Shown piece by piece: positions 31,298 through 54,261 of a stretch of 64,000 nt of DNA. Position 1 is the first letter of the stretch. Each line of letters begins with the position of its first letter. Under the pieces are notes generated by a model, which was given only the letters and a program-made list of their open reading frames with translations, searched no databases and had not been told where the DNA came from. The stretch covers positions 197,555 through 261,554 of the forward strand of contig NZ_FQUM01000007.1 in assembly GCF_900129025.1 (NCBI RefSeq), written 5' to 3'. Made by a program: the position numbers and the translations under genes. The stretch is from Mariniphaga anaerophila. Its GTDB lineage: Bacteria; Bacteroidota; Bacteroidia; Bacteroidales; Prolixibacteraceae.

Positions 31298-31308
31298 TAT
31301 CCAGTAAA

Positions 31309-33218: not shown

Positions 33219-33244
33219 ATGAGAAACTATTTTCAGTAGAATTT

Positions 33245-34273: not shown

Positions 34274-34429
34274 AATAATTTTGATTTTTTTGTAGTGAAA
34301 CACAAAGTTAATCAATATTGTTCTATTTATTTTTCAGCGAATTGGGGCTGTCTGGCCTGAATGACAAAAAACAGTTGGCTGCGATATTAATTTTTTCCTC
34401 AAAATCTGCATTTTAAATACTACTTTCTA

Positions 34430-36499: not shown

Positions 36500-37714
36500 A
36501 TGTTCACCAAGGCTGTCAATCTGATTCTTTTGCTTGTTTTTACGGGCTCTGCAATTCTTGCCCAGGTTCCCACAAAATGGAGGGGGCCAAACGGAAACGG
36601 TGTTTATAACGACACCGGGTTGCTGAAAAAATGGCCGGCTTCCGGTCCAGAAATCATTTGGCACTTTGATGGCCTCGGGGAAGGACATTCATCTCCTGTT
36701 TTTGCCAATGGCGCAATTTACCTTTCGGGAATGGAGGAAACCACCGGCTACATTTATGTTTTGTCAACTGCCGGCGGTTTAAAATGGAAAGTTCCTTACG
36801 GCGAAGAGTTTCACGAAAGCTATCCGGGATCCCGTTCAACTCCTGTTATTGTTGGCGATTTGCTTTACATCTATTCGGGCCTTGGCGTTTTAACCTGCAT
36901 GGATGCCAACAATGGAGATGTAAAATGGCGTAAAGACGTTTTTAAAGATTTCGACGGAAAAAACATCAGGTGGGGAGTTACAGAAACTCCTGTGGTAAAT
37001 GATGACCTGATTTACATTACCCCGGGCGGGAAGAAGGACAACGTGGTTGCAATGAACCGTTTTGCCGGCGATCTGGTTTGGTCTTCGCCCGGGAAAGGCG
37101 AAACTTCGGCTTACTGTACGCCGCTTCTAATTGAGTTTCCCTCGCGAAAATTACTTGTAACCCACACTGCCGACCATATAATTGGCATCGATGCCAAAGA
37201 CGGGAAAATGCTGTGGTCATACCCGCAAACAAATCGTTGGCAGGTTCATGCCAATACACCCATTTATTACAACGGCGGTTTATTCTGCTTTAGCGGCTAC
37301 GGTCAGGGTGGCGTAAAGCTGGAGTTGACCGATGACGGAAGCAGCGTGGAAAAGGCCTGGTTCAACGATAAACTCGATAACCGGATTGGAGGAATGGTGC
37401 TTATTGAAGGCTATTTGTATGGCTCGGGTGACAATAACCGCCAGTGGCGTTGCGTGGACTGGAAAACCGGGGAAGAAAAATACGTATCCACAGACATTGG
37501 TAAAGGAGTTACAGTTGCTGCCGATGGTATGTTGTTTTGCTACAGCGAACGGGGCGAACTTGCCCTGGTGGAAGCTACTCCTGCTGGGTTTAATCCAACG
37601 GGTAAAACCAAAGTCGAACTGGGTTCTGCACAGCATTGGGCGCATCCTGTGGTTAACGATGGAAAGTTATACCTGAGGCACGGAAATACCCTGATTGCTT
37701 ACAAAGTAAAATAG
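36500..37714 (+). CDS. Secreted PQQ-like beta-propeller protein 1
   Basis: A 404-residue exported protein; signal peptide about 1-21 ending LAQ. The mature part is a PQQ-like (BamB/quinoprotein-type) beta-propeller with repeated strand motifs such as GDLLYIYSGLGVLTCMD and GDVKWRKD. It begins with the entry motif WRGPNGNG (about 26-33) seen in all the propeller proteins of this region. I do not see the tryptophan docking motifs or metal ligands of true PQQ alcohol dehydrogenases, so quinone binding is not claimed. It is a close paralogue of the next gene, 46 bases downstream, suggesting tandem duplication. First gene of the 36.5-48 kb cluster. Confidence 0.85.
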   Translation: MFTKAVNLILLLVFTGSAILAQVPTKWRGPNGNGVYNDTGLLKKWPASGPEIIWHFDGLGEGHSSPVFANGAIYLSGMEETTGYIYVLSTAGGLKWKVPYGEEFHESYPGSRSTPVIVGDLLYIYSGLGVLTCMDANNGDVKWRKDVFKDFDGKNIRWGVTETPVVNDDLIYITPGGKKDNVVAMNRFAGDLVWSSPGKGETSAYCTPLLIEFPSRKLLVTHTADHIIGIDAKDGKMLWSYPQTNRWQVHANTPIYYNGGLFCFSGYGQGGVKLELTDDGSSVEKAWFNDKLDNRIGGMVLIEGYLYGSGDNNRQWRCVDWKTGEEKYVSTDIGKGVTVAADGMLFCYSERGELALVEATPAGFNPTGKTKVELGSAQHWAHPVVNDGKLYLRHGNTLIAYKVK

Positions 37715-37760
37715 ACTCAGAATTAGTTATTATGATTAATAATCTACCAAATATAAAACG

Positions 37761-38999
37761 ATGAAAATTGTTCTGTGGAGCGTTGTGTTGGTGGCATTTG
37801 TTTTTACTTCTGAAGCACAGGTAATACAGTGGCGGGGCCCTAACCGCGACGGGAAGTTCCCTGAAACCGGGCTTTTGAAAGAGTGGCCTGAAGCAGGGCC
37901 TGATTTGATTCTGGAAACCGAAGGAATCGGGAAAGGGTGGTCGTCTCCCATTCTGGCTGATAATATGATTTATACAACCGGAATGATTGATACTCTCGAT
38001 TACCTGACTGCAATGGATTTGCAGGGCAATGTAAAATGGCAGGTCTCCTACGGGAGATCCTGGAATCAGTCGTTTCCCGATACCCGCTGCACCCCCGTGG
38101 TGGACGGCGACAAAATTTATGTACAGAGCGGAACCGGCCGTGTTGCGTGCATCCAACGCGAAACCGGGAAGGAAGTCTGGGCAGTTAATGTCGATACAAA
38201 ATTTCATGGCGAATACCATTTGTGGGGAAATTCAGAAACTCCGCTGATTGTAGATGATTTGGTAATTTGTTCCCCGGGCGGTCACGAAACAAGCATTATT
38301 GCGTTGAATAAATTCACCGGCGAAACAGCATGGGAAACAAAATCCGTCGGCGGGCCGCGCGCTTATGCTTCTGCTACTATATACGAATACAGGAACTTCC
38401 GGTATATTCTGGCGGTAACCGGAACGCATCTTCTGGCCATAAAACCCGAAAAAGGAGAAGTAGCATGGAATTATAAATATTATAATCCCGATTTGTGGGA
38501 CAGAGAAGGTCTTATCTGGACCAACACTCCGGTTTTTAATGACGATGAGATTTTTCTGACCATGGGGTACGATTATTTTGCCGTGATGCTGAAAATGGAT
38601 TCCACCGGAACATCCGTGTCTGAGAAGTTTATAGACCACACCCTCGATAATCACCACCACGGCGTGATTTTGCACGACGGGCATTTGTACGGTTCAAACT
38701 GGTACGATAACCGGCGAGGCCGCTGGGTTTGTATGGTTTGGGATACCGGAGAAATCAAATATGTAGACGACTGGGATACCAAAGGTGCGCTGGTAATGGC
38801 CGACGAAATGTTGTATGCATATAACGAGCGGGGAAATGTAGGGCTGGTAAAACCAACTCCCAACGGCTTTGAAGTGGTCAGTCAGTTCCGAATTACCAAA
38901 GGTGCAGGCCCGCATTGGGCGCATCCTTTTATTTCCGATGGTAAACTACTCATGCGGCACGGCGATGTGTTGCTCGTTTTTGATATCAAAGGAAATTAG
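37761..38999 (+). CDS. Secreted PQQ-like beta-propeller protein 2
   Basis: A 412-residue exported protein; signal peptide about 1-19 ending EAQ. PQQ-like beta-propeller with the entry motif WRGPNRDG (about 22-29) followed by TGLLKEWPEAGP, nearly the same opening as its upstream neighbour. Blade motifs include GRVACIQRETGKEVW and TGETAWETKS. A His-rich stretch DNHHHGVILHDGH lies near 294-306. End motif HWAHPFISDGKLLMRHGD also appears in the neighbour, supporting a tandem duplication. Function unknown; probably periplasmic. Confidence 0.85.
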   Translation: MKIVLWSVVLVAFVFTSEAQVIQWRGPNRDGKFPETGLLKEWPEAGPDLILETEGIGKGWSSPILADNMIYTTGMIDTLDYLTAMDLQGNVKWQVSYGRSWNQSFPDTRCTPVVDGDKIYVQSGTGRVACIQRETGKEVWAVNVDTKFHGEYHLWGNSETPLIVDDLVICSPGGHETSIIALNKFTGETAWETKSVGGPRAYASATIYEYRNFRYILAVTGTHLLAIKPEKGEVAWNYKYYNPDLWDREGLIWTNTPVFNDDEIFLTMGYDYFAVMLKMDSTGTSVSEKFIDHTLDNHHHGVILHDGHLYGSNWYDNRRGRWVCMVWDTGEIKYVDDWDTKGALVMADEMLYAYNERGNVGLVKPTPNGFEVVSQFRITKGAGPHWAHPFISDGKLLMRHGDVLLVFDIKGN

Positions 39000-39083
39000 C
39001 TGAAGTGCGAAAAGCAGCCCTTTCTGTTTTTTTAGTGCAGCAGTTTTGAAAGACTGCTTTCGCAGTTTGTATTCAGAAAAAAA

Positions 39084-40511
39084 ATGAAAAGCAGTCAAAT
39101 CATAAAAGCGACCTCTTACTCCCTGGCGATTATTTTCGTCGGGCTTCTGATCTGGTGGTTGCAGACTGATCCAACCAGCGATTTTGAGGTGAGCCTGGAT
39201 GGTGCCGATAACCGTGGTTCGGGAGCCGAAGCTCAGGATGTAAAAATAGGTGAGTATTTTAAACAGTTTGCCGACGATTATACCGAAATGTCTGAAACCT
39301 GGCCACGTTTCCGGGGGGCGGATTTTGATAACATTTCCAAATCGCCGGTGAAACTTATTGACAGGTTTGGCGCTGAGGGGCCGAAAATAGTTTGGTCGAA
39401 AGAGTTGGGCGAAGGGCATTCGGGAGCAGCCATATACAAAGGGTTGGTTTATGTTCTCGATTACGATGAAGAGGAACGCGCAGATATGTTGCGGTGCTAC
39501 TCGTTGCTCACGGGAAAAGAGATGTGGGTTCGCGGATATACGTTGAATGTGAAACGTAATCACGGCATGTCCCGAACGATTCCTGCAATAACAGAAGATT
39601 ATATTCTTTCAATGGGCCCCATGTGCCATGTAATGTGTCTCGACAGGGAAACCGGAGATTTGCGTTGGGGCCTGGATGTGGCAAAAGAGTACCAGTCGGA
39701 AGTGCCTTTGTGGTACACCGGGCAGTGTCCGCTTATTGATGATGGCAAAGCTATTATCGCTACCGGCGGGAATGCTTTGTTGGTGGCTATCGATTGTGAG
39801 ACCGGCGAAAAAATATGGGAAACGCCCAATCCCGAAGGTTGGAAAATGTCGCACTCTTCTGTGATGCCGTTTACTTTTGGCGGGCAAAAAATGTACGTTT
39901 ACAGCGCCATTGGAGCATTGGTTGGTGTGGCTGCAGATGGCGCTAATGCCGGCGAAATTCTTTGGCAAACCACCGTTTGGAACCACTCGGTTGTGGCTCC
40001 TTCTCCGGTTTGCATGCCCGACGGGAAAATATTTATGACGGCAGGCTACGGCGCAGGAAGTATGATGGCACAGCTCTCGGAAAGCAACGGGAATTTTTCC
40101 ATTGAAGTACTCTCTAAATACCCTCCGCGCGACGGATTGGCTTGTGAACAGCAAACCCCGTTGTATTGGGACGGCCATCTTTTGGGAATAATGCCCAAAG
40201 ACGGCGGGCCGAACCGAAACCAGTTGATTTGCGTAAATCCCGATAATCCGCAGGAAATGGTCTGGACCAGCGGAACAGAAACCCGGTTTGGATTGGGACC
40301 TTATTTTATTGCCGACGGAAAACTGTTTATTCTGTCTGACAACGGGACGCTTACTATTGCCCGGCCGGATGTGAAAAAGTACATTCAGCTCGACCAGGCA
40401 AAAGTTATTGAAGACGGACACGATGCCTGGGCGCCTTTTGCTCTTGCAAACGGCTACCTGGTAATGCGCGATTCGAAAACGATGGTCTGTATAGATTTGA
40501 ACGTTAAATGA
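39084..40511 (+). CDS. Membrane-anchored PQQ-like beta-propeller protein 3
   Basis: A 475-residue protein with an N-terminal membrane helix (about 8-28) rather than a cleavable signal, then a short linker and a PQQ-like propeller from about residue 75 (entry motif RFRGADFD). Blade motifs include GDLRWGLDV, GEKIWETPN and GEILWQTT. It contains a cysteine-bearing strand MCHVMCLDRETG near 178-189. It overlaps the next gene by four bases (ATGA), starting the densest part of the cluster. Function unknown. Confidence 0.85.
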   Translation: MKSSQIIKATSYSLAIIFVGLLIWWLQTDPTSDFEVSLDGADNRGSGAEAQDVKIGEYFKQFADDYTEMSETWPRFRGADFDNISKSPVKLIDRFGAEGPKIVWSKELGEGHSGAAIYKGLVYVLDYDEEERADMLRCYSLLTGKEMWVRGYTLNVKRNHGMSRTIPAITEDYILSMGPMCHVMCLDRETGDLRWGLDVAKEYQSEVPLWYTGQCPLIDDGKAIIATGGNALLVAIDCETGEKIWETPNPEGWKMSHSSVMPFTFGGQKMYVYSAIGALVGVAADGANAGEILWQTTVWNHSVVAPSPVCMPDGKIFMTAGYGAGSMMAQLSESNGNFSIEVLSKYPPRDGLACEQQTPLYWDGHLLGIMPKDGGPNRNQLICVNPDNPQEMVWTSGTETRFGLGPYFIADGKLFILSDNGTLTIARPDVKKYIQLDQAKVIEDGHDAWAPFALANGYLVMRDSKTMVCIDLNVK

Positions 40512-41476
40512 AAAAAATGAAGAACAAAGGAATTATCATTTTTCTTCTCCTCCTGGTGGTTGTAATCGTGGCGGTTTTGGTTGTCGATTTTATTTCCGAC
40601 AGGCCGGATCGCAGCAATCCAAATCCGTTTGCCTATAACGTGGAAGAATTTAAAAACGTTGCTCCCGAGCTGATTCTTTATAAAGAATCGAAAAATTTCA
40701 GAATTGGTTTTGAAGAGCCGGTTGCCGTCGCCATTCAAAATAACAAACTATACATTGCCGGCGACAAAGAGTTGAAAGTTGTTGATTTGTCGGGTAAACT
40801 GCTGGCGAATTTTCCATTGCCCGAAAAACCCCTTGCGGTGGAAGTTTTTCAGCATGAAATTTTTGTTGCCGTTAAAAATAAAATTTTGATGTTTGATGAA
40901 ACAGGCAATGCGTTAAGTGAATGGCCGGTTCCGGGAAACAACTCATTAATAACTGCGGTTGCTGCTGATAACAACAATGTTTTTGTGGCAGACGCCGGAA
41001 TGCGAAAGGTGATTCGTTATTCAAAAAATGGCGAGATGCTGGGAGAGTTTGATGGCAAAGCCGAAGAGGGCGCTTTGCACGGATTTATTGTTCCAAGCCC
41101 GTGTTTCGACCTCGATATTAATGACCAGGAAGAACTTTGGGTGGTTAATCCAGGCCTGCACGCGCTGGAAAATTATACTTACGACGGGCAGTTGCGTACC
41201 TATTGGAAAAGCACGGGCGTGAATCTGGAAGGGTTCAGTGGTTGCTGCAACCCGTCGCATTTTACTTTTTTAAGCGATGGCCGTTATGTAACCAGCGAAA
41301 AAGGCCTGGTTCGGATAAAAACATACAAGCGATCGGGTGAGTTTGAAGGAGTGGTTGCAGCGCCTGCAAAGTTTGTGGACGAAGGCAGGGCGCCCGATGT
41401 GGCTGCCGACAGCAATGACAATATTTATGCGCTCGATTTTGATAAAAAAATAATTCGGGTTTTTGAACCAAAATAA
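40508..41476 (+). CDS. Membrane-anchored NHL-like six-bladed propeller protein
   Basis: A 322-residue protein: N-terminal membrane helix (about 7-28), then a propeller whose repeats resemble NHL/SMP-30-type blades (EEPVAVAIQNNKLYIAG, DNNNVFVADAGMRKVIRYS, DSNDNIYALDFDKKIIRVF). Such propellers often serve as protein- or ligand-binding scaffolds. A CC pair with nearby His lies in GFSGCCNPSHF (about 244-254). It overlaps the preceding gene by ATGA, and the next start is one base past its stop, so all three are translationally linked. Confidence 0.82.
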   Translation: MKKMKNKGIIIFLLLLVVVIVAVLVVDFISDRPDRSNPNPFAYNVEEFKNVAPELILYKESKNFRIGFEEPVAVAIQNNKLYIAGDKELKVVDLSGKLLANFPLPEKPLAVEVFQHEIFVAVKNKILMFDETGNALSEWPVPGNNSLITAVAADNNNVFVADAGMRKVIRYSKNGEMLGEFDGKAEEGALHGFIVPSPCFDLDINDQEELWVVNPGLHALENYTYDGQLRTYWKSTGVNLEGFSGCCNPSHFTFLSDGRYVTSEKGLVRIKTYKRSGEFEGVVAAPAKFVDEGRAPDVAADSNDNIYALDFDKKIIRVFEPK

Positions 41477-41477
41477 T

Positions 41478-41675
41478 ATGGACCGAAAAGAATTTTTAAA
41501 AACCGGAGGCAGGATTTTAATCCTTGGCGGAATGGCAGCCACCACCGGATACCTGGTTGTCCGGAAAAAAGTGGATGCTACGTGTTCGGTATCGCCGGCC
41601 TGTCAAAGGTGCGGTAAATTCGCAAAATGTGAATTGCCACAGGCAAAGGAGGTGAAAGATGGAAAAAGAGAGTAA
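41478..41675 (+). CDS. Small Tat-like protein with four conserved-looking cysteines
   Basis: A 65-residue protein starting at ATG 41478, one base after the preceding stop. The N-terminus DRKEFLKTGGR followed by a hydrophobic stretch (13-28) resembles a Tat or anchor signal, though it lacks the paired arginines. The mature tail holds Cys36, Cys42, Cys45 and Cys51 (spacing x5, x2, x5) and then a charged end. Four cysteines could hold an FeS cluster or zinc. It overlaps the next gene by 17 bases. I know no named family. Because it is locked between a propeller and a polyferredoxin, it probably belongs to the same complex. Confidence 0.7.
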   Translation: MDRKEFLKTGGRILILGGMAATTGYLVVRKKVDATCSVSPACQRCGKFAKCELPQAKEVKDGKRE

Positions 41676-42237
41676 GTCGAAAAACCGGAGGGAGTTTATT
41701 CAGAGCGGCGTGCGGTTGTCGTTGGCAATGGCGCTGGGCAGTGTCAGTGGGTTGGCGCTCAGTAAAGTGGTAAAAGATGACTACGTCTGGCAAATCGATC
41801 CTTTTGAATGCACCCAGTGCGGCCGTTGCGCCACTGATTGTGTGATGAGCCCTTCGGCAGTTAAATGCGTTCATGCCTACGATTTGTGCGGCTATTGCGA
41901 TTTGTGTGGCGGCTATTTAAAACCCGACTCCAACGCATTGAGCACTGCTGCCGAAAATCAACTTTGCCCCACTGCCGCCATCGAACGAAAATTTATTGAG
42001 GAGCCTTATTTCGAATATATTATTAACGAAGATTTGTGTATCGGATGCGCCAAATGTGTAAAAGGGTGTACTGCTTTCGGAAACGGCTCGTTGCATTTGC
42101 AGATAATCCACAGCATTTGCGATAATTGTAACGATTGTTCCATCGCCCGCGTTTGCCCGTCGAATGCAATAAAAAGGGTGCCGGCCAGTGAAGCGTATTT
42201 CATAAAAGGTGACTTTACTAAAAAATCGGAATCCTGA
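41659..42237 (+). CDS. Tat-exported NapG-like polyferredoxin
   Basis: A 192-residue periplasmic ferredoxin. The N-terminus NRREFIQSG (about 9-17) plus a hydrophobic stretch is a Tat signal. Seventeen cysteines follow: C51-54-57-61, C70-77-80-83, C103, C127-130-133-137 and C154-157-160-166, room for four [4Fe-4S] clusters, as in NapG/MauM ferredoxins. NapG passes electrons from the quinol-oxidising NapH to the periplasmic nitrate reductase NapA. Here a NapH-like gene follows after three bases, but no NapA-like molybdoenzyme is present in the window, so the final acceptor or donor is unknown. Confidence 0.85.
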   Translation: MEKESKSKNRREFIQSGVRLSLAMALGSVSGLALSKVVKDDYVWQIDPFECTQCGRCATDCVMSPSAVKCVHAYDLCGYCDLCGGYLKPDSNALSTAAENQLCPTAAIERKFIEEPYFEYIINEDLCIGCAKCVKGCTAFGNGSLHLQIIHSICDNCNDCSIARVCPSNAIKRVPASEAYFIKGDFTKKSES

Positions 42238-42240
42238 ACA

Positions 42241-43503
42241 ATGAAAAAACTGAAGTACATATTCTGGACTGTTGCTTTTGTGGTGTTGTACGTGGCCGCG
42301 TCGGCTCAGCAACAGCGTTTTCCAAAACCGGAGTTCGAATCCGGGTACGAACAGCCGACAACAATTACACCGGAGCCTCGTGCGCTGTCACTGGAGTATT
42401 TCGATGTGCTGGTTTTGCTGGTTGTCCTTTCTCTTGCTTCGTGGCTGGTCTTAAAAAAACGCTCGCGGCAGGGAGTTTTGTGGCTTTCGGTATTTACGCT
42501 TATTTACTTCGGCTTTTACCGGGATGGCTGCATCTGTTCCATTGGTGCAATTCAAAATGTCACGCTTTCTTTTTTCGATCCGGCTTATGCCATTTCGCTC
42601 ACGGCACTGCTGTTCTTCCTGCTACCACTGGCTTTTACGCTGTTTTTCGGCCGTACATTCTGTGCCGGTGCCTGCCCGTTGGGCGCTATTCAGGATTTAA
42701 TAATTATCAAGCCCATTAGTTTGCCCAAATGGCTGAACAAAACGTTGGGGCTGATTCCATACATATATCTTTCGCTGGCGGTACTTTTTGCTGCCACGGG
42801 CACCGACTTTATTATTTGTCGATACGACCCGTTTGTGGGCATTTTTCGCATGGAAGCGAAATTTCACATGGCTGTTTTGGGCGTTAGTTTTTTACTGATG
42901 GGAATGTTTGTGGCGCGTCCTTATTGCCGGTTTTTTTGCCCTTACGGTGTTTTGCTGAGTTGGATGTCGCGTTTTTCCAAGTGGCATCTTTCCATTACTC
43001 CGTCAGCGTGCATTCAGTGTAAATTGTGTACCAACTCGTGCCCGTTCGATGCCATTGATTACCCGACCAACGAAAAAGAGGTGGTAAAATCCGGCCTCGG
43101 CCCGAAACGTTTTCTTGTTTACGCGGTGCTAATTCCGGTTTGGGTAGCTGCCGGCGTGTTTGTCGGGGAACGTACTCATACCTGGTTGTCAAAAGCCAAT
43201 CCGGATGTTTACCTGGCGGAACTGCTTATTTCCAATCCTGAAATTAAAAACGACCCCGATAACATCGATGTACAAACTTTTCTGGCATCCGGAAAAACCA
43301 TGGAACCCTTGGTGGAAGAGGCAAAAATCATCCGTGGAAAATTTTATATCGGAAGCATGATTGCCGGAGGATTTCTGGGGCTGGTAATTGGAATGACGCT
43401 GCTGAATACGATTGTTTTCAGAAAACGTCAGGATTATTTGCCGCATAAAGGAAACTGTTTCAGTTGTGCGCGCTGTGTGGATTATTGCCCGGTAGAAAAA
43501 TAA
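42241..43503 (+). CDS. NapH/NosR-like membrane ferredoxin
   Basis: A 420-residue inner-membrane protein. After a signal-like segment (5-23) come four to six helices (about 57-75, 79-92, 118-137, 165-185, 211-228, 284-301, 360-380). Cysteine motifs: CIC near 96-98, CAGACP near 140-145, CRFFCP near 228-233, a ferredoxin-like CIQCKLCTNSCP near 255-266 and a second CFSCARCVDYCP at the very end. This matches NapH/NosR/RdxA proteins that move electrons between quinol and soluble FeS partners. It follows the NapG-like gene by three bases, forming a NapGH-type module. Direction of flow cannot be read from sequence. Confidence 0.87.
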   Translation: MKKLKYIFWTVAFVVLYVAASAQQQRFPKPEFESGYEQPTTITPEPRALSLEYFDVLVLLVVLSLASWLVLKKRSRQGVLWLSVFTLIYFGFYRDGCICSIGAIQNVTLSFFDPAYAISLTALLFFLLPLAFTLFFGRTFCAGACPLGAIQDLIIIKPISLPKWLNKTLGLIPYIYLSLAVLFAATGTDFIICRYDPFVGIFRMEAKFHMAVLGVSFLLMGMFVARPYCRFFCPYGVLLSWMSRFSKWHLSITPSACIQCKLCTNSCPFDAIDYPTNEKEVVKSGLGPKRFLVYAVLIPVWVAAGVFVGERTHTWLSKANPDVYLAELLISNPEIKNDPDNIDVQTFLASGKTMEPLVEEAKIIRGKFYIGSMIAGGFLGLVIGMTLLNTIVFRKRQDYLPHKGNCFSCARCVDYCPVEK

Positions 43504-43550
43504 AAAGGATCAATAGTTTGAAAAAAGAACAATAAGCAATTATAAACGAA

Positions 43551-45410
43551 ATGACCAACAACGATAAATTAAAACTTGCACAAAATGTAGCTGTAATTTC
43601 CGGTGTTTTTTGCACCGTGCTGGCTTTGTTGTTGCTGCTTAATTTTTGGCAGTTTTCCAAAAACGATCCCGTTGAAAGCCAGGCGCTGGATGTGCTTGTT
43701 CAGCGGCTGAAAGAAGAACCCAATAATGATGGGCTGAAAAACGAAATCAGAAATTACGATTTGCTGGCACGCAAAGCTTATTTTAACAGTCAGTGGCAGG
43801 TAAAAACCGGCGCTTTTCTGTTGTTGTTGGGAGCCGTTGTGCTTGCTTTTGCGCTCAGGGTTTATTACTCGCTGAAAGCAAAAATTGAAGAGCCCGAAAA
43901 AGTTTTGGAAAATGAAATAGCCAGCAGGATTCTGGCTCAGAAAGGTGTTCTGATTGTTGGGGCAGTGCTTTTTGCCGTTGCCATTGTTGCGTCGTTTTCA
44001 ACCGTTAATTATTTGGAAAAGTACGACTGGCAAAATGCTGTTGTTGAAGCGCCTGCCCAATCGGTTGACGAAGGAATTGAAGTGATTGATATTGCAGAAA
44101 ATGTGCCTCAGAAAGAGGAGATTGTCGAAAATAATCCTCCGAAGGAAGTAGTGGATGAAACACCCGAGGTTCAGGCAATTGATGCAGAAACACCTGTCGC
44201 GGCGCCTGCGCCTGCCCCGGAAAAAGTTGTAGCAGAAAAACCTGCCGCTGCGTTTACTGCAGATCTTGTAAAACGAAACCACAACTCTTTTCGTGGGCCA
44301 TTCGGTCAGGGAATCAGTTATTGTAAAAATATCCCGACGCAGTGGGATGGTGCTGCTGGAGCAAATATTCTCTGGAAATCTCCGATTCCCAAGCACGGGT
44401 ACAATTCGCCGGTGGTTTGGGGCGACAAGGTGTTTGTAGCCGGTGCCGATAACCAGACCCGGGAGGTATACTGTTTCAACGGTAATAATGGAAAATTACT
44501 TTGGACAGGCAAAGCCGACAATATTCCGGGCTCTCCGTCTTCACCGCCCCGCGTCACCGAGGATACAGGTCTTTCGGCGCCAACAGTTACTACCGACGGG
44601 CAGCGGGTGTTTGCCATTTTTGCTACCGGAGATGTGGCCGCTTTCAATATGGATGGCGACCGGGTCTGGGCGAAGAATCTGGGCGTGCCTGATAATCATT
44701 ACGGACATTCATCTTCGCTCATTGTATGGGACAATAAGCTTATTATCCAATACGATACAAATAAAAGCGGACGGGTGTTGGCGTTGAACACAGCCACTGG
44801 TGAACCGGTGTGGGATACCGCCCGCAGTTCAAAAATTTCCTGGGCCAGCCCGGTGCTTGCTCAGGTTGACGGCAAATACCAGGTGGTTCTTACCGCTGAT
44901 CCCATTGTGGCAGGATACGATGTTCAGACCGGAAAAGAGCTTTGGTCAGTGGAATGTATGATGGGAGAAGTTGGCCCTTCTGTCGGGTATTCCGACGGTG
45001 TGGTTTACGCCGCCAACGAATACGCAACATTGGCCGCCATCAATATTAAAACACAGGAAATTCTTTGGGAAGAAGATATGTTTTTGCCGGAAGCTGCCAG
45101 TCCGCTGGCGCACGAAGGACTGCTTTTTATTGCAACAAGTTACGGGGTGCTGGTGTGTTACGATGCCAAAACAGGTGAAGAATACTGGGAGCACGACGTG
45201 GGCAAAACACTTTATTCATCGCCTGTTTATGCCGATGGTAAACTGTTTATGATGGATAACGACGGGGTGATGCGCATTTATGAATTTGCCAAAGAAATGA
45301 AATTAATTGCCGAGAACAAGTTGGGCGAAAACGCAGGAACAACTCCGGCTTTTGTGGACGGAAGAATTTATATCAGAGGAGAAGATAATTTGTATTGCAT
45401 CGGTAAATAG
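43551..45410 (+). CDS. Membrane-anchored PQQ-like beta-propeller protein 4 with Pro/Ala linker
   Basis: A 619-residue protein. N-terminal region (about 1-185) has three hydrophobic helices (about 15-33, 84-104, 128-150) with a helical loop between, then an acidic, proline/alanine-rich linker (about 165-245, with APAPAPEK). The C-terminal PQQ-like propeller (about 245-619) opens with FRGPFGQG and repeats blades such as GKLLWTGK, GEPVWDTA, GKELWSVE and GEEYWEHD. The layout suggests a propeller held away from the membrane by a flexible tether. It lies between the NapH-like gene and the NuoEF fusion. Confidence 0.85.
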   Translation: MTNNDKLKLAQNVAVISGVFCTVLALLLLLNFWQFSKNDPVESQALDVLVQRLKEEPNNDGLKNEIRNYDLLARKAYFNSQWQVKTGAFLLLLGAVVLAFALRVYYSLKAKIEEPEKVLENEIASRILAQKGVLIVGAVLFAVAIVASFSTVNYLEKYDWQNAVVEAPAQSVDEGIEVIDIAENVPQKEEIVENNPPKEVVDETPEVQAIDAETPVAAPAPAPEKVVAEKPAAAFTADLVKRNHNSFRGPFGQGISYCKNIPTQWDGAAGANILWKSPIPKHGYNSPVVWGDKVFVAGADNQTREVYCFNGNNGKLLWTGKADNIPGSPSSPPRVTEDTGLSAPTVTTDGQRVFAIFATGDVAAFNMDGDRVWAKNLGVPDNHYGHSSSLIVWDNKLIIQYDTNKSGRVLALNTATGEPVWDTARSSKISWASPVLAQVDGKYQVVLTADPIVAGYDVQTGKELWSVECMMGEVGPSVGYSDGVVYAANEYATLAAINIKTQEILWEEDMFLPEAASPLAHEGLLFIATSYGVLVCYDAKTGEEYWEHDVGKTLYSSPVYADGKLFMMDNDGVMRIYEFAKEMKLIAENKLGENAGTTPAFVDGRIYIRGEDNLYCIGK

Positions 45411-45446
45411 TAAATTCGAAGTAGAGCGTCCTGAAAATTAAACATT

Positions 45447-45632
45447 ATGGGAAAGAAAACAACACTGTTTATTTCAGTTTTATTGATTCTGGCGGGCATT
45501 ATCATTTATGTGTTATTAAAGGATTCAAACACAAAAATGGATGAGGAGCTTATTGGCTTTTTCTCCGGAATTTGTTTTGGCGCTGGTGTTATATTGCCCG
45601 TGAGACTGTTTTTTGATAAGAAGAAAAAATAG
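45447..45632 (+). CDS. Small two-helix membrane protein
   Basis: A 61-residue protein with two hydrophobic helices (about 5-23 and 37-54) and a lysine-rich end (DKKKK). It lies 36 bases after the propeller gene and 14 (or 20) bases before the NuoEF fusion in a tight same-strand run, so I take it as real. No known family. It could be a small subunit of the electron-transfer complex. Confidence 0.6.
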   Translation: MGKKTTLFISVLLILAGIIIYVLLKDSNTKMDEELIGFFSGICFGAGVILPVRLFFDKKKK

Positions 45633-45652
45633 GAACCGGTGCTTTTGTGAAA

Positions 45653-48001
45653 ATGAGTATGACAAGCAACTTTCAAAATATAGATCGCATTATTCAGGAA
45701 AAAGGTGCTGAAAAAAAGAGCCTGATTCCGATTTTGCAAGCCATTCAGCACGAATACAATTACCTGCCTGAAGAAGCATTAAAATATCTCGCGGAAAAAA
45801 CTTCAATTACTCCTTCTGAAATTGTTGGAGTGGCCAGCTTTTATAAACAGTTTAGAATGCAGCCCGCCGGAAAGCATCTGGTGAAAATTTGTGTGGGAAC
45901 TGCTTGTCATGTAAAAGGGGCTTCACTTGTTCACGATGCTTTTCGTCGTCATTTCAATTTGCCGCAGGGAACCGATACGGATGATACCGGCGAATACACA
46001 CTGGAAAAAGTTAGTTGCCTCGGATGTTGTACGCTGGCGCCGGTGGTTCAGGTTGACGATATTACTTACGGTCATGTGGCGCCGGATCAGGTAGACAAAG
46101 TAATTGCGGATTTTGAAAGCCAGCAGGGAAAAAAAGGTGCAAAAAAATTCAGGAAAGCAGACGGCACCGAAATCAAAGGTGAAATCAGAATCGGGCTGGG
46201 CTCCTGTTGTGTGGCAAGTGGCAGCGGCGAAATCGAACAGGAGGTGGAAAGCGTAGTGAACCGAAGTGGCCTTCGGGTGAAACTGAAACATGTGGGCTGC
46301 GTGGGAATGTGTCACCAGGTTCCGCTGGTGGAGGTTGTTCCCAACGAAGGAGAACCTACGCTTTATGCTAAAGTGAAGCCTGAAGACGTAAAACGAATTA
46401 TTGAAAGTCATTTTGAGCCGCCGGGCATTCTTTCAAAAATAAAAAGCAGGCTTTTTCATTTTGCGGAGGAGATTCAGACGGATCGTAACTGGGACGGCGT
46501 GCAGCGTTACGAAATCAGCATGCGCGAAAAACCCGTGGCATCGTTTCTTGGCAACCAAATTCCCATTGCTACGGAGTACCGGGGAATTATCAATCCGCTC
46601 GATATTGAGGACTATCAGCGGCGTGGTGGATTTTCTTCCCTGAAAAAAATGTTTGAAATGTTATCTCCCGATCAGGTTGTTGAAGAAGTGAAGAAGAGCG
46701 GTATTCGCGGCCGGGGAGGAGCCGGGTTTCCCACCGGTGTGAAATGGGAGTTTGTGAAGAAAGAAAAAAGTGAGGTAAAATATTTGATTTGCAACGGCGA
46801 TGAAGGTGATCCCGGCGCTTTTATGGACAGGATGCTTTTGGAAAGTTACCCTTATCGTGTAATTGAGGGGATGATTATTGCTGCCTACGCAGTGGGGATT
46901 CACCACGGTTATTTTTATATCAGGGCGGAATATCCGCTGGCCGTAAAACGCGTACGAAAGGCGTTGGAAATCTGCCGGGAGAATAATTTTCTGGGAAATG
47001 ATATAATGGGGTCGGGGTTTGATTTGGAACTGAATATTTACGAAGGCGCGGGCGCTTTTGTTTGCGGCGAAGAAACAGCGTTGATTGCGTCGGTTGAGGG
47101 AAGTCGTGGTTTTCCGAGAATTCGTCCGCCATTCCCTGCCCAAAAAGGTTTGTGGGGGCATCCAACATTGGTGAACAACACCGAAACCATGGCGCAGATT
47201 TCGTACATCATTCGCGAAGGTGCAGAAAAATTTAGCGGAATCGGAACCCACGGAAACACCGGAACAAAGGTGTTTGCACTGGCCGGAAAAGTGGCCCGCG
47301 GCGGACTGATTGAAGTGCCAATGGGAATTACCATTCATGAAGTGGTGGAAGTTATTGGCGGCGGTATTGCCAACGGAAAAAAGTTTAAAGCCGTTCAGAT
47401 TGGCGGTCCGTCGGGTGGTTGCATTCCTGCGGAATATGCCGACACGCCAATTGATTATGAATCGCTCACAGCAATGGGCGCAATGATGGGATCCGGTGGT
47501 TTGGTAGTGCTTGACGAAACCGACTGCATGGTGGACATGGCCAGATTTTTCCTGTCGTTTACGCAGGACGAATCGTGCGGAAAATGCACTTTCTGCAGGG
47601 TGGGAACCAGAAGAATGCTGGATATTTTGGAAAACATAACCGCAGGAAAAGGAAAGCCCGGAGATATTGAAGAGCTGGAAAAACTGGCAGAGTGGACAAA
47701 AAAAGGAAGTCTTTGCGGGCTGGGAAAAACTGCTCCAAATCCGGTAATTAGTACGCTTAAATATTTCAGAAACGAGTACGAAGCGCACATAAATGGAGTT
47801 TGTCCCACCGGAAAATGCACCGGACTGATTACTTATTCGGTGAACGACGATTGCATCGGGTGTACCATGTGTGCTCAAAAATGTCCGGTAGATGCCATCC
47901 CGTTTACGCCGCATGAAAAGCACAGCATCGATACCGGGTTGTGCATTAAATGCGATTCTTGCCGGGCTGCCTGTCCGGTAGACGCTATTGATGTGAAGTA
48001 G
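45653..48001 (+). CDS. NuoE-NuoF (HydC-HydB) fusion: NAD(H)-dependent FMN/FeS subunit
   Basis: A 783-residue cytoplasmic electron-input module; I start at ATG 45653 (a GTG at 45647 and an ATG at 45659 are alternatives). Order: NuoE-like thioredoxin-fold [2Fe-2S] domain (about 1-150, CVGTAC near 79 and CLGCC near 122); a second [2Fe-2S] thioredoxin-like domain (about 170-245, CC near 184 and CVGMC near 216); NuoF flavodoxin-like NADH/FMN domain (RGRGGAGFPTG near 352, GDEGDPGAF, EGAGAFVCGEE); SLBB; NuoF [4Fe-4S] (CGKCTFCRVG near 642); and two C-terminal [4Fe-4S] motifs (CIGCTMCAQKCP near 735 and CIKCDSCRAACP near 763). This is the HydB domain order of bifurcating enzymes with HydC fused in front. 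No hydrogenase, formate dehydrogenase or Complex I subunit follows. Confidence 0.93.
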   Translation: MSMTSNFQNIDRIIQEKGAEKKSLIPILQAIQHEYNYLPEEALKYLAEKTSITPSEIVGVASFYKQFRMQPAGKHLVKICVGTACHVKGASLVHDAFRRHFNLPQGTDTDDTGEYTLEKVSCLGCCTLAPVVQVDDITYGHVAPDQVDKVIADFESQQGKKGAKKFRKADGTEIKGEIRIGLGSCCVASGSGEIEQEVESVVNRSGLRVKLKHVGCVGMCHQVPLVEVVPNEGEPTLYAKVKPEDVKRIIESHFEPPGILSKIKSRLFHFAEEIQTDRNWDGVQRYEISMREKPVASFLGNQIPIATEYRGIINPLDIEDYQRRGGFSSLKKMFEMLSPDQVVEEVKKSGIRGRGGAGFPTGVKWEFVKKEKSEVKYLICNGDEGDPGAFMDRMLLESYPYRVIEGMIIAAYAVGIHHGYFYIRAEYPLAVKRVRKALEICRENNFLGNDIMGSGFDLELNIYEGAGAFVCGEETALIASVEGSRGFPRIRPPFPAQKGLWGHPTLVNNTETMAQISYIIREGAEKFSGIGTHGNTGTKVFALAGKVARGGLIEVPMGITIHEVVEVIGGGIANGKKFKAVQIGGPSGGCIPAEYADTPIDYESLTAMGAMMGSGGLVVLDETDCMVDMARFFLSFTQDESCGKCTFCRVGTRRMLDILENITAGKGKPGDIEELEKLAEWTKKGSLCGLGKTAPNPVISTLKYFRNEYEAHINGVCPTGKCTGLITYSVNDDCIGCTMCAQKCPVDAIPFTPHEKHSIDTGLCIKCDSCRAACPVDAIDVK

Positions 48002-48073
48002 ATGCAGTTTCCTGTGTTTGCTTTCAGAACTGGTGTTTTGGGCTAAAAATGGAGATAGAATGTTGTGACAAGT

Positions 48074-48106
48074 GTTGCGGAAAATTTATTTTTCTTGGCA
48101 TCTTTG
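48074..48106 (+). promoter_or_regulatory. Candidate promoter for the SGNH hydrolase gene
   Basis: GTTG (48074-48077), 21 bases, CATCTTTG (48099-48106): one mismatch each from TTTG / TAnnTTTG. The leader would be about 110 bases. It suggests the downstream genes can be expressed apart from the core operon. Confidence 0.38.
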
Positions 48107-48222
48107 TTCCTTGGTAAACGAAAAAATGATTATTTAAAATACAAATCTGATATAACGAATATAAAGGCGTTGCTCCACAATAAGATGAAGCACTTTATGC
48201 GATTTTAAAATTAAATAGACAC

Positions 48223-49305
48223 ATGAGACTTTTTTTAGTATTATTTGCTTTGGTTTTGCCGGTATTCGGCTTTTCGGTTTCCCCCGATAGTTTAAAATAT
48301 GTTGATGCAGCTGATTTTCCTGTTATTGGAAAAGGCTTTACTGATACTCAAACCCGTTACGAAAGGTTGCCCTCCGCACTGGAGTCAACTACCCGTCCGC
48401 CGGTGTGGAATCTGTCGAAAAATTGCAGTGGCATGGCTATTCGTTTTCGTACCAATTCAACAGTGATTGCCGCTAAATGGGAAGTTACCGGCGATGTTTT
48501 TATGAACCATTTTACCATGACCGGCATAAAAGGGCTGGATTTGTACTGCCTGAAAGACGGGAAATGGCAGTTCGTAAATTCGGGTCGGCCCAAAGCTAAA
48601 TCTACCACCGCCGTAATTATTCAGAATATGACAGGCGATGAGATGGAGTACATGCTGTACCTGCCCTTGTACGACGGATTGAAAAGCCTGGAAATTGGCG
48701 TTGAACAAAACGCACTTTTAGATGGTCCGGCGATTAATTCTCCAAAAACAGGCCATCCGATTGTATTTTACGGAACCAGTATTACACAGGGCGGATGCGC
48801 TTCGCGGGCAGGTATGTCGTACACTAACATTCTTGGGCGAATGCTCGATCGGGAGATTGTCAACCTGGGTTTTAGCGGAAACGGCCAGCTCGATCTCGAA
48901 GTGGCGGAAGCAATTGCTACTATTCCTTCTTCCTGCATTGTTATGGACTGTGTGCCCAATGTTTCTGTGGCTCAGATGAACGAAAAGTACCACAAGTTTA
49001 TTGAGCTTATTCGTGAAGGCCAGCCCGAAACTCCGATCATTTTTGTGGAAACTATTCTCTTCCCGCACAGACATTTTGACCAGCATGTTTTTAAATTGCT
49101 AAATGAAAAGAATGCAACATTGAAGCGTATTTTCGACGAGAGAAAAAAAGGCGGCGACAAAAATATCTACTACGTGAAATCGGATAAATTAATTGGCAAC
49201 GACCAGGAAGCAACTGTTGACGGCGTTCATTTAACCGATTTAGGATTCAAACGCATGGCCGAAAATCTGTATCCGGTATTGCGTAAACGGATGATAAAAA
49301 ATTAG
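48223..49305 (+). CDS. Secreted SGNH/GDSL hydrolase with N-terminal GxDLY domain
   Basis: A 360-residue exported protein; signal peptide about 1-17. The N-terminal jelly-roll (about 40-170) carries the GLDLYCL motif of the GxDLY family. The catalytic SGNH domain follows: block I FYGTSITQGGCA (about 184-195, Ser near 188), block II with Gly in NLGFSGNGQ (about 212-220), block III in VMDCVPN and block V DGVHLTDLG (about 330-338, Asp/His). These enzymes usually remove acetyl or other ester groups from glycans. Its place inside the redox cluster is odd; it may be a bystander. Confidence 0.88.
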   Translation: MRLFLVLFALVLPVFGFSVSPDSLKYVDAADFPVIGKGFTDTQTRYERLPSALESTTRPPVWNLSKNCSGMAIRFRTNSTVIAAKWEVTGDVFMNHFTMTGIKGLDLYCLKDGKWQFVNSGRPKAKSTTAVIIQNMTGDEMEYMLYLPLYDGLKSLEIGVEQNALLDGPAINSPKTGHPIVFYGTSITQGGCASRAGMSYTNILGRMLDREIVNLGFSGNGQLDLEVAEAIATIPSSCIVMDCVPNVSVAQMNEKYHKFIELIREGQPETPIIFVETILFPHRHFDQHVFKLLNEKNATLKRIFDERKKGGDKNIYYVKSDKLIGNDQEATVDGVHLTDLGFKRMAENLYPVLRKRMIKN

Positions 49306-49362
49306 TTCGACTGCGAACAACAATTAATTGAACCAGGACATTTAGCCACATTGAAGTAAAAT

Positions 49363-50925
49363 ATGATTAAGCTCAAAATAAATAACCGGGAGATTCAGGT
49401 AGAAGAAGGTACTTCGGTGATGAAAGCGGCTCAGCAAGCGGGAATCGATGTTCCCAACCTGTGCTGGCACGATGAGCTGGAACACTTTACTTCGTGTATG
49501 CTTTGCCTGGTGAAAGATGGAAGGAACGGTAAACTGATTCCGTCGTGTTCGATTGAAGCAACCAACGGGATGGATGTAATTACCGACGACGACGAAGTTG
49601 CAGAAGCGCGGAAGACGGCGTTGGAATTGCTGCTCAGCGAGCATGTGGGCGACTGCGAAGCACCTTGTCAGGTTGCTTGTCCGGCCCACATGAACATCCC
49701 GTTGATGAACCGGTTGATAGCTGCCGGAAAGTTTGATGAATCGCTGGAAGCGGTGAAACGCGACATCGCTTTGCCGGCTGTGCTGGGGCGCATTTGCCCG
49801 GCTCCGTGCGAGGGCGCATGTCACCGAAAAACGGTGGACGAACCGGTTTCTATTTGCATGTTAAAACGTTTTGTTGGCGATAAAGGCACTGGAAACGTGA
49901 TTGCGCCGGCAGAAGAAACAGAATACAAAGTGGCGGTAATTGGCGCCGGTCCGGCCGGGTTGGCTGCTGCCTATTATTTGCGGTTGCGCGGAATAAAGGT
50001 CACTCTTTTTGATAAAGCTGACAAAGCCGGAGGCCAGTTGAGAACTGAAATCAGCAGCGACATTTTACCTCCGGATGTTCTGGACAAAGAAATTGCCGCC
50101 ATTCTGCAAACAGGGGTGAATTTTCAGGGAGGAAAAAGCATTGATGCAGAAATGTTTGCGGAAATCCGGAAAGAGTTTAATGCCGTTGTAGTTGCTTCGG
50201 GAACCATTGGCGATGAGTCTTCCGGTTTCGGATTGAAGGCCACTCCAAAAGGATTCGTCGTTGATAAAAACAGTTACCAGACTTCAATAGAAAATGTGTT
50301 CGCCATTGGAAATGCGTTGCGAACCTCAAGGCTGGCGGTGCGTTCGGTGGGGCAGGGAAAAGAGGTGGCCTTTTCTGTTTGGCAGTACCTGTGCGGGCAA
50401 CCGGTAAAAGGCGAGTCGCGCATTTTTAATTCCAGGTTTGGAAAGCTGGTCAGTGAAGAGTTTTCAGAGTTCATGAAAGAATCAGCACCGGCAAAACGAA
50501 ATTATCCGGACGCAGGCGGCGACCATGGCTTTTCGGCTGAGGAAGCCGTGGCGGAAGCCAAAAGGTGCCTGCATTGCGATTGTCGTGCTATCGACGATTG
50601 TAAACTGCGAATTTATTCCGACCGGTATCAGGCGGACCAGAAGCGGTTTAAAACCAGTGAACGCCGGAAAATAACCAAACTAACCACGCATTCCACATTG
50701 GTTTATGAGCCGCAGAAATGTATTAAGTGTGGCATTTGCGTCAGGCTAACAGAGAAAGAAGGAGAGAAGTTCGGATTTACATACGTTGGCAGGGGCTTCG
50801 ACGTGGAAATGGGAGTGCCCTTTAACGAAGAACTGGAGCAAGGCCTGACAGAAACAGCAGAAAAGGTGGCAAAGAGTTGTCCTACAGGTGCCATTTCTTT
50901 TAAAACGACTTGTCCTCCCGAGTAG
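49363..50925 (+). CDS. NuoG-like [2Fe-2S] / GltD-like flavoprotein lacking the NAD(P)H domain
   Basis: A 520-residue cytoplasmic redox protein. N-terminal [2Fe-2S] domain of NuoG/HydA type: Cys34, 45, 48 and 62 (x10, x2, x13). Next a GltD-type N-terminal FeS region (DCEAPCQVACP near 97-107; CPAPCEGACH near 145-154), then an FAD motif GAGPAGLAAAYYL near 193. The second FAD-site strand VFAIGNA comes only about 120 residues later (near 312), with no second GxGxxG between, whereas GltD/NfnB proteins carry a whole NAD(P)H domain there. The C-terminus has CLHCDC near 402 and one ferredoxin-like site (CIKCGIC near 452, SCPTGA near 505) as in NuoG. It may use the NuoEF fusion nearby as its NAD(H) module, in a Bfu/Nfn-like assembly; that is inference. 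Confidence 0.85.
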   Translation: MIKLKINNREIQVEEGTSVMKAAQQAGIDVPNLCWHDELEHFTSCMLCLVKDGRNGKLIPSCSIEATNGMDVITDDDEVAEARKTALELLLSEHVGDCEAPCQVACPAHMNIPLMNRLIAAGKFDESLEAVKRDIALPAVLGRICPAPCEGACHRKTVDEPVSICMLKRFVGDKGTGNVIAPAEETEYKVAVIGAGPAGLAAAYYLRLRGIKVTLFDKADKAGGQLRTEISSDILPPDVLDKEIAAILQTGVNFQGGKSIDAEMFAEIRKEFNAVVVASGTIGDESSGFGLKATPKGFVVDKNSYQTSIENVFAIGNALRTSRLAVRSVGQGKEVAFSVWQYLCGQPVKGESRIFNSRFGKLVSEEFSEFMKESAPAKRNYPDAGGDHGFSAEEAVAEAKRCLHCDCRAIDDCKLRIYSDRYQADQKRFKTSERRKITKLTTHSTLVYEPQKCIKCGICVRLTEKEGEKFGFTYVGRGFDVEMGVPFNEELEQGLTETAEKVAKSCPTGAISFKTTCPPE

Positions 50926-50991
50926 AAGGAGAAATTTGTAATTTTAACGTTGAAACCGAAGAATTTCTATTTTGCCTCGAATTCAAATAAA

Positions 50992-52107
50992 ATGAAGATG
51001 AAACGGATACTGCTTTTACATTTCATTTTTTGGCTGGTAATGCCGGCAATTGCCCAGACTGGTGATTCGTGGCCTGTGTTTCGGGGAAATCAGGAGTTGA
51101 ATGGTGTTTCAAAAACCAAACTTCCTGCGCGCCCCAACCTGCTTTGGACTTTTCAAACCGGTGACAACATTAAGTCTGCCCCGGTTGTGGCCGATGGAAA
51201 ACTGGTCATCGGGTCAACTGACGGTTTTGTTTATTGCCTCAATTTACAGGGAAAACTACTTTGGAAATTTGAAACCGGAAATGCCATTGAAGCAGCGGCG
51301 CTTATTCACAATAATGTCGTTTATATTGGTAATCTCGACGGCACTTTTTATGCGCTCGATTTAAACTCAGGCAAAAAGAAATGGGAATACGAAACCGAAA
51401 ACCAGATTGTTGGTTCTGCCAATTGGTGGAAAATCGGCGAAACCACTTATGTTTTGGTAGGAAGTTACGATTATTATCTGCATTGTGTGGATGCCGGCAC
51501 CGGAGAGGTGAAGTGGAAGTACGAGTCGGATAACTTTATAAACGGGGCTCCGGCCTGCTCCGGCGGAAAGGCTTTTTTTGGCGGCTGCGATGGTTTTTTG
51601 CACGTGGTAAACATTGAAACCGGAAAGGCCGAAAAGAAGATTGATGTGGCATCTTATGTTCCGGGTTCTCCGGCGTTGGAAAATGGCAAGGCTTATCTGG
51701 GCGATTACGACGGGCGGTTTTTTGAGGTGGATATCGAAAATGAAAAAACGTCGTGGGTGTGGAAAGACGAGAACACCACTTTGCCGTTTATTGCTTCTCC
51801 CGCAATTCTTGGAAACAGGCTGTTTGCGGCCAATCACAATAAATTCCTGTACTGTTTCGATAAAAATAACGGCGAAAAGCAATGGGAGTACAATACCGGA
51901 AGCAGGGTGGAAGCTTCTCCTGTTGTTGCGGGAAATAAGGTGGTGGTGGCCAATATGAGAGGCGATTTGGCCCTGGTGAACCTTTCCGACGGGAAAGTTA
52001 TCTGGACTTATGAAATCGGGAGCCAGATAATCAGCAATCCGGCAGTGGCTGCGGGGCGTATTTATGTGGGAGCCTACGATGGAAATGTTTACTGTTTCGG
52101 AGAATAA
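50992..52107 (+). CDS. Secreted PQQ-like beta-propeller protein 5
   Basis: A 371-residue exported protein from ATG 50992 (50998 is an alternative; the frame reaches a TTG at 50950, giving a less natural prefix). Signal peptide ends near AIAQ. Entry motif VFRGNQ, then about seven regular blades with repeated GKLLWKFETGN, GKKKWEYETEN, GEVKWKYESDN, GEKQWEYNTGS and GKVIWTYEIGS. The repeats are more regular than in propellers 1-4 and resemble BamB-like proteins. It lies 66 bases after the flavoprotein gene, at the right end of the cluster. Confidence 0.86.
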   Translation: MKMKRILLLHFIFWLVMPAIAQTGDSWPVFRGNQELNGVSKTKLPARPNLLWTFQTGDNIKSAPVVADGKLVIGSTDGFVYCLNLQGKLLWKFETGNAIEAAALIHNNVVYIGNLDGTFYALDLNSGKKKWEYETENQIVGSANWWKIGETTYVLVGSYDYYLHCVDAGTGEVKWKYESDNFINGAPACSGGKAFFGGCDGFLHVVNIETGKAEKKIDVASYVPGSPALENGKAYLGDYDGRFFEVDIENEKTSWVWKDENTTLPFIASPAILGNRLFAANHNKFLYCFDKNNGEKQWEYNTGSRVEASPVVAGNKVVVANMRGDLALVNLSDGKVIWTYEIGSQIISNPAVAAGRIYVGAYDGNVYCFGE

Positions 52108-53491: not shown

Positions 53492-53548
53492 TTGGTTTTT
53501 ACACGATAAATCACCCGCAGGATATGCCTGGGTGGAAAACAAAATATT

Positions 53549-54223: not shown

Positions 54224-54261
54224 GCTTTCAATGTGAGACTTCGGGAAAAAAAAGGACTCTT

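Follow-up and report, generated by a model that had tools for sequence, protein, structure and literature searches.

The 64 000 nucleotide window analysed here (Mariniphaga anaerophila contig NZ_FQUM01000007.1, positions 197 555 to 261 554) contains, at 36500 to 52107, a single run of genes on the plus strand, whose coordinates and gene calls were reproduced from the sequence (Table 1). The run combines a NuoEF fusion protein and a short GltD-like BfuA, both resembling parts of the electron-bifurcating Bfu enzymes (HydBC/StnAB-type), with a NosR/NapH-type membrane protein, an exported NapG-like polyferredoxin, a four-cysteine protein (Cys4) and six propellers, five of them pyrroloquinoline quinone (PQQ)-like and one NHL-like. 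Our preferred reading, in which we have slightly better than even confidence, is that these genes encode a new Bfu variant in which NADH and ferredoxin exchange electrons with the membrane protein, the exported polyferredoxin and the periplasmic propellers. The evidence consists of gene content, hallmark residues, the loss of a domain, synteny, co-occurrence and three kinds of gene fusion.

The run is confirmed as real and conserved, and it is kept in many Bacteroidales. In one scan of genome contigs with the polyferredoxin, a relative was encoded in at least 556 of at least 588 stretches, and the best 80 were kept. These include isolates of the Prolixibacteraceae genera Draconibacterium, Maribellus, Gaoshiqia, Sunxiuqinia and Mangrovibacterium, together with many metagenome bins, a few of which are labelled as other groups (L094, labelled Chlorobiota, recurs as the same-family genome G007). 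Matches at E≤1e-12 were found in 70 of 393 genomes of the order (three of the 70 only near 1e-30), and in a phylum sample of 296 genomes the source genome was the sole match at this threshold. Among 60 relatives, which share genomes with the 393-genome sample, 39 matched at E≤1e-3 and 30 at E≤1e-60. The latter is our own cut for a strong NapG match, and G019, which has a trio of genes without Bfu genes and matches at 5e-30, was scored as lacking one.

Gene order was compared in 41 loci longer than 19 kb and in a separate set of 40 loci, with 120 loci in all; the sets overlap in genomes (G001, G002 and G007 recur as L086, L088 and L094). Conservation of the neighbourhood, which the first-pass annotation had named as a check, was borne out, as all ten core genes are present in the order of the window in 29 of the 41 loci. 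A further ten are ordered but incomplete and two are rearranged, and the core genes lie on one strand in 40 of the 41. Individual genes were found in 33 (PQQ5), 38 (PQQ2), 39 (PQQ1, PQQ3 and GltD), 40 (NapG and NuoEF) or 41 (NHL, NapH and PQQ4) of these loci. The other 40 loci were complete and in order (11), ordered but incomplete (20) or out of order (9). Among the last nine, additional or exchanged propeller copies are the sole difference in five, two are Bfu-less trios, L056 is rearranged and in L077 the GltD-PQQ5 pair has moved. Matches over at least 70 % of the length were found in 40 fetched loci for PQQ1, PQQ2, PQQ3 and NuoEF (34 each), NHL and PQQ4 (36 each), NapH (38), GltD (30) and PQQ5 (28), counted as the best tblastn match per query, for which PQQ1, PQQ2 and PQQ5 can cross-hit. 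Searches with tblastn at E≤1e-3 overcount; the counts over the 41 and 120 loci use best labels. The run goes beyond chance, given the NapG match in 70 of the 393 genomes and the preservation of gene order at most loci.

NuoEF had been annotated correctly as a NuoE-NuoF fusion, and also contains another thioredoxin-like [2Fe-2S] segment as well as a 2[4Fe-4S] domain at its C terminus. By the names of the deposits, its best matches in the PDB were HydB 7q4v and 8a6t, NiFe hydrogenase subunit B 7t2r, NADH dehydrogenase 9bov, NfnB 9n5u and HoxF 8oh5 (which we take to be the Stn complex), with electron-bifurcating HydB among the names. The features of a BfuBC core that are present include the flavin mononucleotide (FMN)/NADH domain, the thioredoxin-like [2Fe-2S] segment and the B1, B3 and B4 motifs (Pfam; ligand cysteines in 35/35 rows, C650 in 34/35). 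Ligand positions from PMC9304861 were mapped onto NuoEF through alignment to 7t2r. Across the 35 rows, 23 of 25 ligand positions are invariant, the diagnostic His included, with C650 kept in 34 and T665 variable. In the B2 cluster, C627, H714, C719 and C724 are present in 35/35, and position 665 is T in 15, C in 13, R in 4, S in 2 and V in 1. According to PMC9304861, the B2 site matching T665 is Cys or Thr, and non-bifurcating homologues lack the diagnostic His. The HydB of the source genome and three StnB-like rows carry the same five B2-position residues (C627, T665, H714, C719 and C724), and a NuoF-like protein at L175, in the same genome beside a second hydrogenase, agrees at none of the 11 positions that were compared. 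At the B5 [2Fe-2S] site, C187, C188, C218 and C222 are present in 35/35, yet HydB has Gly in place of C187, and three StnB rows have Gly in place of C188. A tree of 25 rows placed 17 propeller-type BfuB rows (the window and 16 of the 34 available) in one group (100/99), separate from four Stn rows (100/99), with 10 of 22 inner branches open and two rows on very long branches. PF01512 occurs in four places in the source genome, namely the window gene, the HydB of a HydABC set, the second hydrogenase-linked NuoF and an RnfC-like open reading frame.

Judged by its residues, NuoEF is thus of the BfuBC electron-bifurcating type, and bifurcating activity would be expected of it. As the Bfu residue set is present, ferredoxin is predicted as a second partner. 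The first-pass annotation had proposed a route linking NAD(H) to the quinone pool and to periplasmic propellers, which is supported in part; the cluster remains an electron-transfer cluster, to which the Bfu core adds this ferredoxin partner.

The second Bfu component had been called a GltD-like flavoprotein, which is correct and can be refined to a BfuA arm that lacks the NADP(H) domain. Its residues 1–282 align to NfnA- and StnC-type chains, in which the alignment resumes approximately 145 residues later. The domain is missing in 31/31 BfuA rows, with only 0–35 residues between two conserved positions, so that the third substrate of this Bfu enzyme is probably not NADP(H). In L072, L073 and L074, BfuA is 323–335 amino acids long and the FAD (flavin adenine dinucleotide) part is also missing (by reading, and by Pfam for L072), while the Fe-S motifs are kept; flavin is therefore dispensable in some genomes. 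Short BfuA, scored by frame length and span, was found in 30/30 relatives with a strong NapG match versus 0/30 of the others (co-occurrence counts were put to a Fisher test that ignores relatedness). Four of the 30 relatives without a strong match have only a long BfuA, and G045 has both forms. The long copies are approximately 1230 amino acids, and Stn-like operons were seen at four of five loci, the contig ending at the fifth.

In the membrane and exported module, the names NapG and NapH apply only loosely. The polyferredoxin is exported, with a twin-arginine start and 16 cysteines that are invariant in 23 aligned sequences; no NapG/MauM family was returned by NCBIfam at E≤0.01, and the name therefore rests on architecture. 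The PDB matches of its profile (HdrA, photosystem ferredoxin and 9mqx_E) were uninformative. The NapH-like protein is, as first annotated, a membrane protein with [4Fe-4S] motifs, and its cysteines are conserved in at least 90 % of 39 rows. However, its scores on the NCBIfam models for napH (41.2 bits, cut-off 213) and NosR (40.2 bits, cut-off 1000) are about equal and far below both cut-offs, and Pfam found no FMN_bind domain in its 420 amino acids. CX3CP motifs in NapH and NosR matter for partner attachment and activity (PMC5928378). The four cysteines of Cys4 follow an RK-type twin-arginine translocation (Tat)-like start, as had been described. Cys4 is fused to the NapG-like protein in L070, L071 and L079, the NapG-like protein is fused to the NapH-like protein in L071, and in L079 BfuA is joined to PQQ5 via one hydrophobic segment.

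Alternatively, BfuABC and the NapH-like protein may form an NADH plus ferredoxin:menaquinone oxidoreductase like the proposed Nuo-Bfu, with NapG and the propellers accessory or structural. Wolinella NapH has been proposed to draw electrons from the quinol pool (PMC5928378) and a Nuo-Bfu with menaquinone as third substrate has been proposed (PMC9304861). We nevertheless consider this version unlikely, as it leaves unexplained both the Cys4-NapG-NapH fusion and an exported polyferredoxin and six propellers that are kept with the Bfu genes at most loci.

In the preferred reading, NuoEF would be the BfuBC core, with NAD(H) reacting at the FMN and ferredoxin at the C-terminal domain, and the short BfuA would be an iron-sulfur (usually also flavin) wire from this core to the NapH/NosR-like protein. 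The latter would exchange electrons with the exported polyferredoxin and Cys4, and then with the membrane-anchored and soluble propellers, the whole possibly forming one physical complex. Net flow would be outward: confurcation of NADH and reduced ferredoxin would yield electrons of mid potential, to be taken up by a periplasmic acceptor and/or menaquinone. A link to quinone is possible. A quinone-independent transmembrane bifurcation branch, in which NADH and reduced ferredoxin are confurcated via the NosR/NapH-type protein into the exported polyferredoxin, giving low-potential reductant in the periplasm for propeller-bound acceptors, seems rather doubtful to us. The likelihoods that we attach to these readings and their rivals overlap and need not sum to 1, since one complex could accommodate the quinone branch or inward flow.

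All five PQQ-like proteins exceed the Pfam PQQ_2 cut-off, as expected from their first description, and the NHL-like assignment is borderline, the match lying barely at threshold. In PQQ3, 126 of 475 positions are conserved at ≥90 % (conservation was computed on 35-row and 28-row alignments), and six weak PDB matches of its profile (tetrathionate hydrolase, BamB and quinoprotein ethanol dehydrogenase) were uninformative. The GCCNP motif of the NHL-like protein (G245-P249) is conserved in at least 90 % of 37 rows, and its vicinal cysteines are possibly a redox or metal site. A vicinal cysteine pair is a feature of PQQ-dependent dehydrogenases; none of the five PQQ-like proteins encoded in the window has a CxxCH or CC motif. 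All five score higher on the PQQ_2/BamB-like model than on the PQQ-dehydrogenase propeller model PF01011, for which PQQ1 (34 bits), PQQ2 (37.9), PQQ4 (40.2) and PQQ5 (35) pass the cut-off and PQQ3 (18.8) falls below it. On TIGR03075 (PQQ alcohol dehydrogenase), PQQ1–PQQ4 reached 34–58.4 bits against a cut-off of 480.05, PQQ5 being outside that scan. A search for PqqC had no match in any control genome and is hence uninformative on PQQ biosynthesis.

Several observations weigh against the preferred reading. Four of the five PQQ-like propellers pass PF01011, which is also compatible with an oxidising role, and position 665 of NuoEF is neither Cys nor Thr in the R, S and V rows. Gene sets are partial or rearranged at L056, L062, L063 and others, and the BfuA-PQQ5 fusion is known from one draft genome only. 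BfuA lies on a different contig from NapG in G020, and also in G018, G030 and G051, where contig breaks may explain it. Finally, a NapG'-NapH'-NHL' trio with a PhnD-like protein occurs without Bfu genes beside it (L075 and L084), and Bfu is thus not necessarily required by the membrane module. The trio lies at L075:7704-11985 and L084:582-4442, adjoined by the PhnD-like substrate-binding protein, and its NHL-like protein keeps GCCNP.

The trio with its shared motif and the unlinked BfuA of G020 would suit two systems in one operon, in which quinol feeds a NapG-NapH-NHL-propeller chain and a soluble Bfu enzyme works separately with a soluble partner of its own. This we regard as somewhat improbable, given the 30/30 versus 0/30 co-occurrence, the interleaved order PQQ4-NuoEF-BfuA-PQQ5 and the BfuA-transmembrane-PQQ5 fusion, albeit in one genome. 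Inward flow, in which the propellers would be the site where a periplasmic substrate is oxidised, with bifurcation of its electrons to NAD+ and ferredoxin, would agree with the PF01011 matches of PQQ1, PQQ2, PQQ4 and PQQ5 and with the reversibility of Bfu reactions (PMC9304861). The missing CxxCH and CC motifs and the low TIGR03075 scores speak against it, and we judge it improbable.

The usual terminal enzymes had been described as absent. None is present in the cluster, and the source genome, which is 99.99 % complete, has no match anywhere to PF00384 (Molybdopterin; positive in 11 of 14 control genomes) or PF02730 (AFOR_N; positive in 5 of 14). NapA, a molybdopterin-type formate dehydrogenase or a tungsten enzyme acting in trans was thereby ruled out. 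NosZ was likewise rejected: there was one short match (27.9 bits versus 625) in a 316 amino acid open reading frame, CuA-like by reading, and no control passed the cut-off. The absence does not extend to hydrogenase in the genome as a whole: the window cluster is free of hydrogenase domains by Pfam, and a separate HydABC set with its own HydB at L174 rules out the cluster as a hydrogenase module. The search for a catalytic enzyme was thus negative for these families, NiFe hydrogenase, carbon monoxide dehydrogenase and reductive dehalogenase, for example, not being among those searched. Of the recurring neighbours, which were read by eye, with Pfam on a few, none resembled a redox catalytic subunit that accompanies the core. 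These neighbours, at up to 12 of 120 loci, include receiver- and sensor-like regulators and a cyclase-like set.

The picture is complicated by a co-occurring terpenoid-type operon, which encodes a squalene-hopene-cyclase-like protein (DCDD motif), a toroid protein, a DUF116-polyprenyl synthase, a radical SAM protein and an HdrA-like ferredoxin (seen at L176:8937-15244, L182:4664-10887 and L091:145-2965). It was found in 18/30 relatives with a strong NapG match versus 0/30 others, and in 13/70 NapG-matching versus 2/323 other genomes of the order (Fisher test, relatedness again ignored). Its cyclase and toroid genes are near the cluster at 7 of 120 loci. The cyclase was not found in the source genome, and the operon therefore cannot be essential to the cluster.

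Table 1. Genes of the run and adjoining downstream genes (positions in the window)
Gene or product	Position	Strand	Features
PQQ1	36500..37714	+	Exported PQQ_2/BamB-like propeller; PQQ_2 84.9 bits; N-terminal hydrophobic stretch
PQQ2	37761..38999	+	Exported PQQ_2/BamB-like propeller; PQQ_2 78.7 bits; often two copies per locus
PQQ3	39084..40511	+	Membrane-anchored propeller; PQQ_2 63.7 bits; hydrophobic stretch 6–24
NHL-like propeller	40508..41476	+	Membrane-anchored; NHL 20.2 bits; hydrophobic stretch 8–26; GCCNP vicinal-cysteine motif
Cys4	41478..41675 (from its ATG)	+	Small protein; four Cys after RK-type Tat-like start
NapG-like polyferredoxin	41659..42237	+	Exported; twin Arg start; 16 Cys
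NapH/NosR-like membrane protein	42241..43503	+	CX3CP motifs; two C-terminal [4Fe-4S] motifs; seven hydrophobic stretches; 420 amino acids
PQQ4	43551..45410	+	Propeller; N-terminal anchor of three transmembrane segments (12–30, 84–102, 132–150); PQQ_2 122.7 bits
61 amino acid transmembrane peptide	45447..45632	+	Two hydrophobic stretches; no Pfam family; probably accessory
NuoEF	45647..48001	+	BfuC-BfuB fusion; FMN/NADH domain, Fe-S sites, C-terminal ferredoxin domain
SGNH/GDSL hydrolase	48223..49305	+	Pfam match; insertion, outside the system
Short BfuA (GltD-like)	49363..50925	+	[2Fe-2S] and [4Fe-4S] sites; FAD fold; no NADP(H) domain
PQQ5	50950..52107	+	Exported propeller; start likely at downstream ATG; PQQ_2 149.4 bits
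Glycosyltransferase, ABC ATPase, ABC permease	52178..57525	+	Frequent downstream neighbours of the cluster
Pfam cut-offs: PQQ_2, 27.6 bits; NHL, 20; PF01011, 26.7 bits. ABC, ATP-binding cassette.

Overlaps of ATGA length or longer, reported earlier for the core, were found between PQQ3 and NHL (4 bp) and Cys4 and NapG (17 bp); the remaining intergenic gaps up to NuoEF are 1–84 bp. Gene starts had been taken as the first possible codon, and the inflated overlap lengths computed from those starts were set aside. Up to 48 kb, the plus strand has no terminator-like site between core genes, although this counts as weak evidence. The SGNH hydrolase and the 61 amino acid peptide look accessory, and the former is rare at related loci (2/40 in one locus set, 6/120 overall). 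Upstream, at 29377-34315, are genes for EtfB, EtfA and acyl-CoA dehydrogenase (read by eye) and a minus-strand PF04143 sulfur-transport gene; none of these was seen beside the cluster at other loci in the neighbourhood comparison. Downstream, the glycosyltransferase and the ABC ATPase/permease pair remain at many loci, the former in 24 of the 41 loci longer than 19 kb (flanks end at 10 kb). In one genome (L059:2665-4671), an Fe-S protein and an FAD/NAD oxidoreductase, which presumably resemble Hdr/Flx partners, lie upstream at the place of PQQ1–PQQ3.

The cluster had been put forward as undescribed. This holds for the cluster as a whole within the literature searched, most subscription papers lying outside it, where no paper describing it was found; it does not hold for the cytoplasmic half, which belongs to the described Bfu family. 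According to PMC9304861, Bfu enzymes vary in their third substrate and 17 BfuB clades have no assigned function, and its main text contains no words starting with PQQ or Nap. In this cluster the third-substrate arm lacks the NADP(H) domain, and synteny, co-occurrence and fusions connect it to a relay in the membrane and periplasm, which makes a new third partner directly testable. If the reading is true, many Bacteroidales would have an additional route of energy conversion, and low-potential electrons could be exchanged across the membrane.

Among the closest known systems, HydABC bifurcating hydrogenase shares the BfuBC core, but the cluster has no hydrogenase domain and a separate HydABC set is present at L174. 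Like NapGH, NosR and RdhC (PMC5928378), the cluster has a membrane core with CX3CP and, as in NapH and NosR, C-terminal 4Fe-4S motifs, and like NapGH it has an exported ferredoxin partner. Unlike NapGH/NosR, it has no PF00384 enzyme in the genome, only the short sub-cut-off NosZ match, and scores far below the napH and NosR cut-offs. The proposed Nuo-Bfu and Mbh-Bfu (PMC9304861) also tie a Bfu core to a membrane partner; theirs, however, are complex I-like or energy-converting hydrogenase subunits. The Stn / Nfn-Bfu transhydrogenase (PMC10482914, PMC7483475) likewise has a BfuBC core and a BfuA with an N-terminal [2Fe-2S] and a GltD-like part. Here, in contrast, NuoE is fused to BfuB, BfuA has 520 amino acids and no NADP(H) domain (963–1178 amino acids in the matched chains), and BfuA is accompanied by a membrane and periplasmic module.

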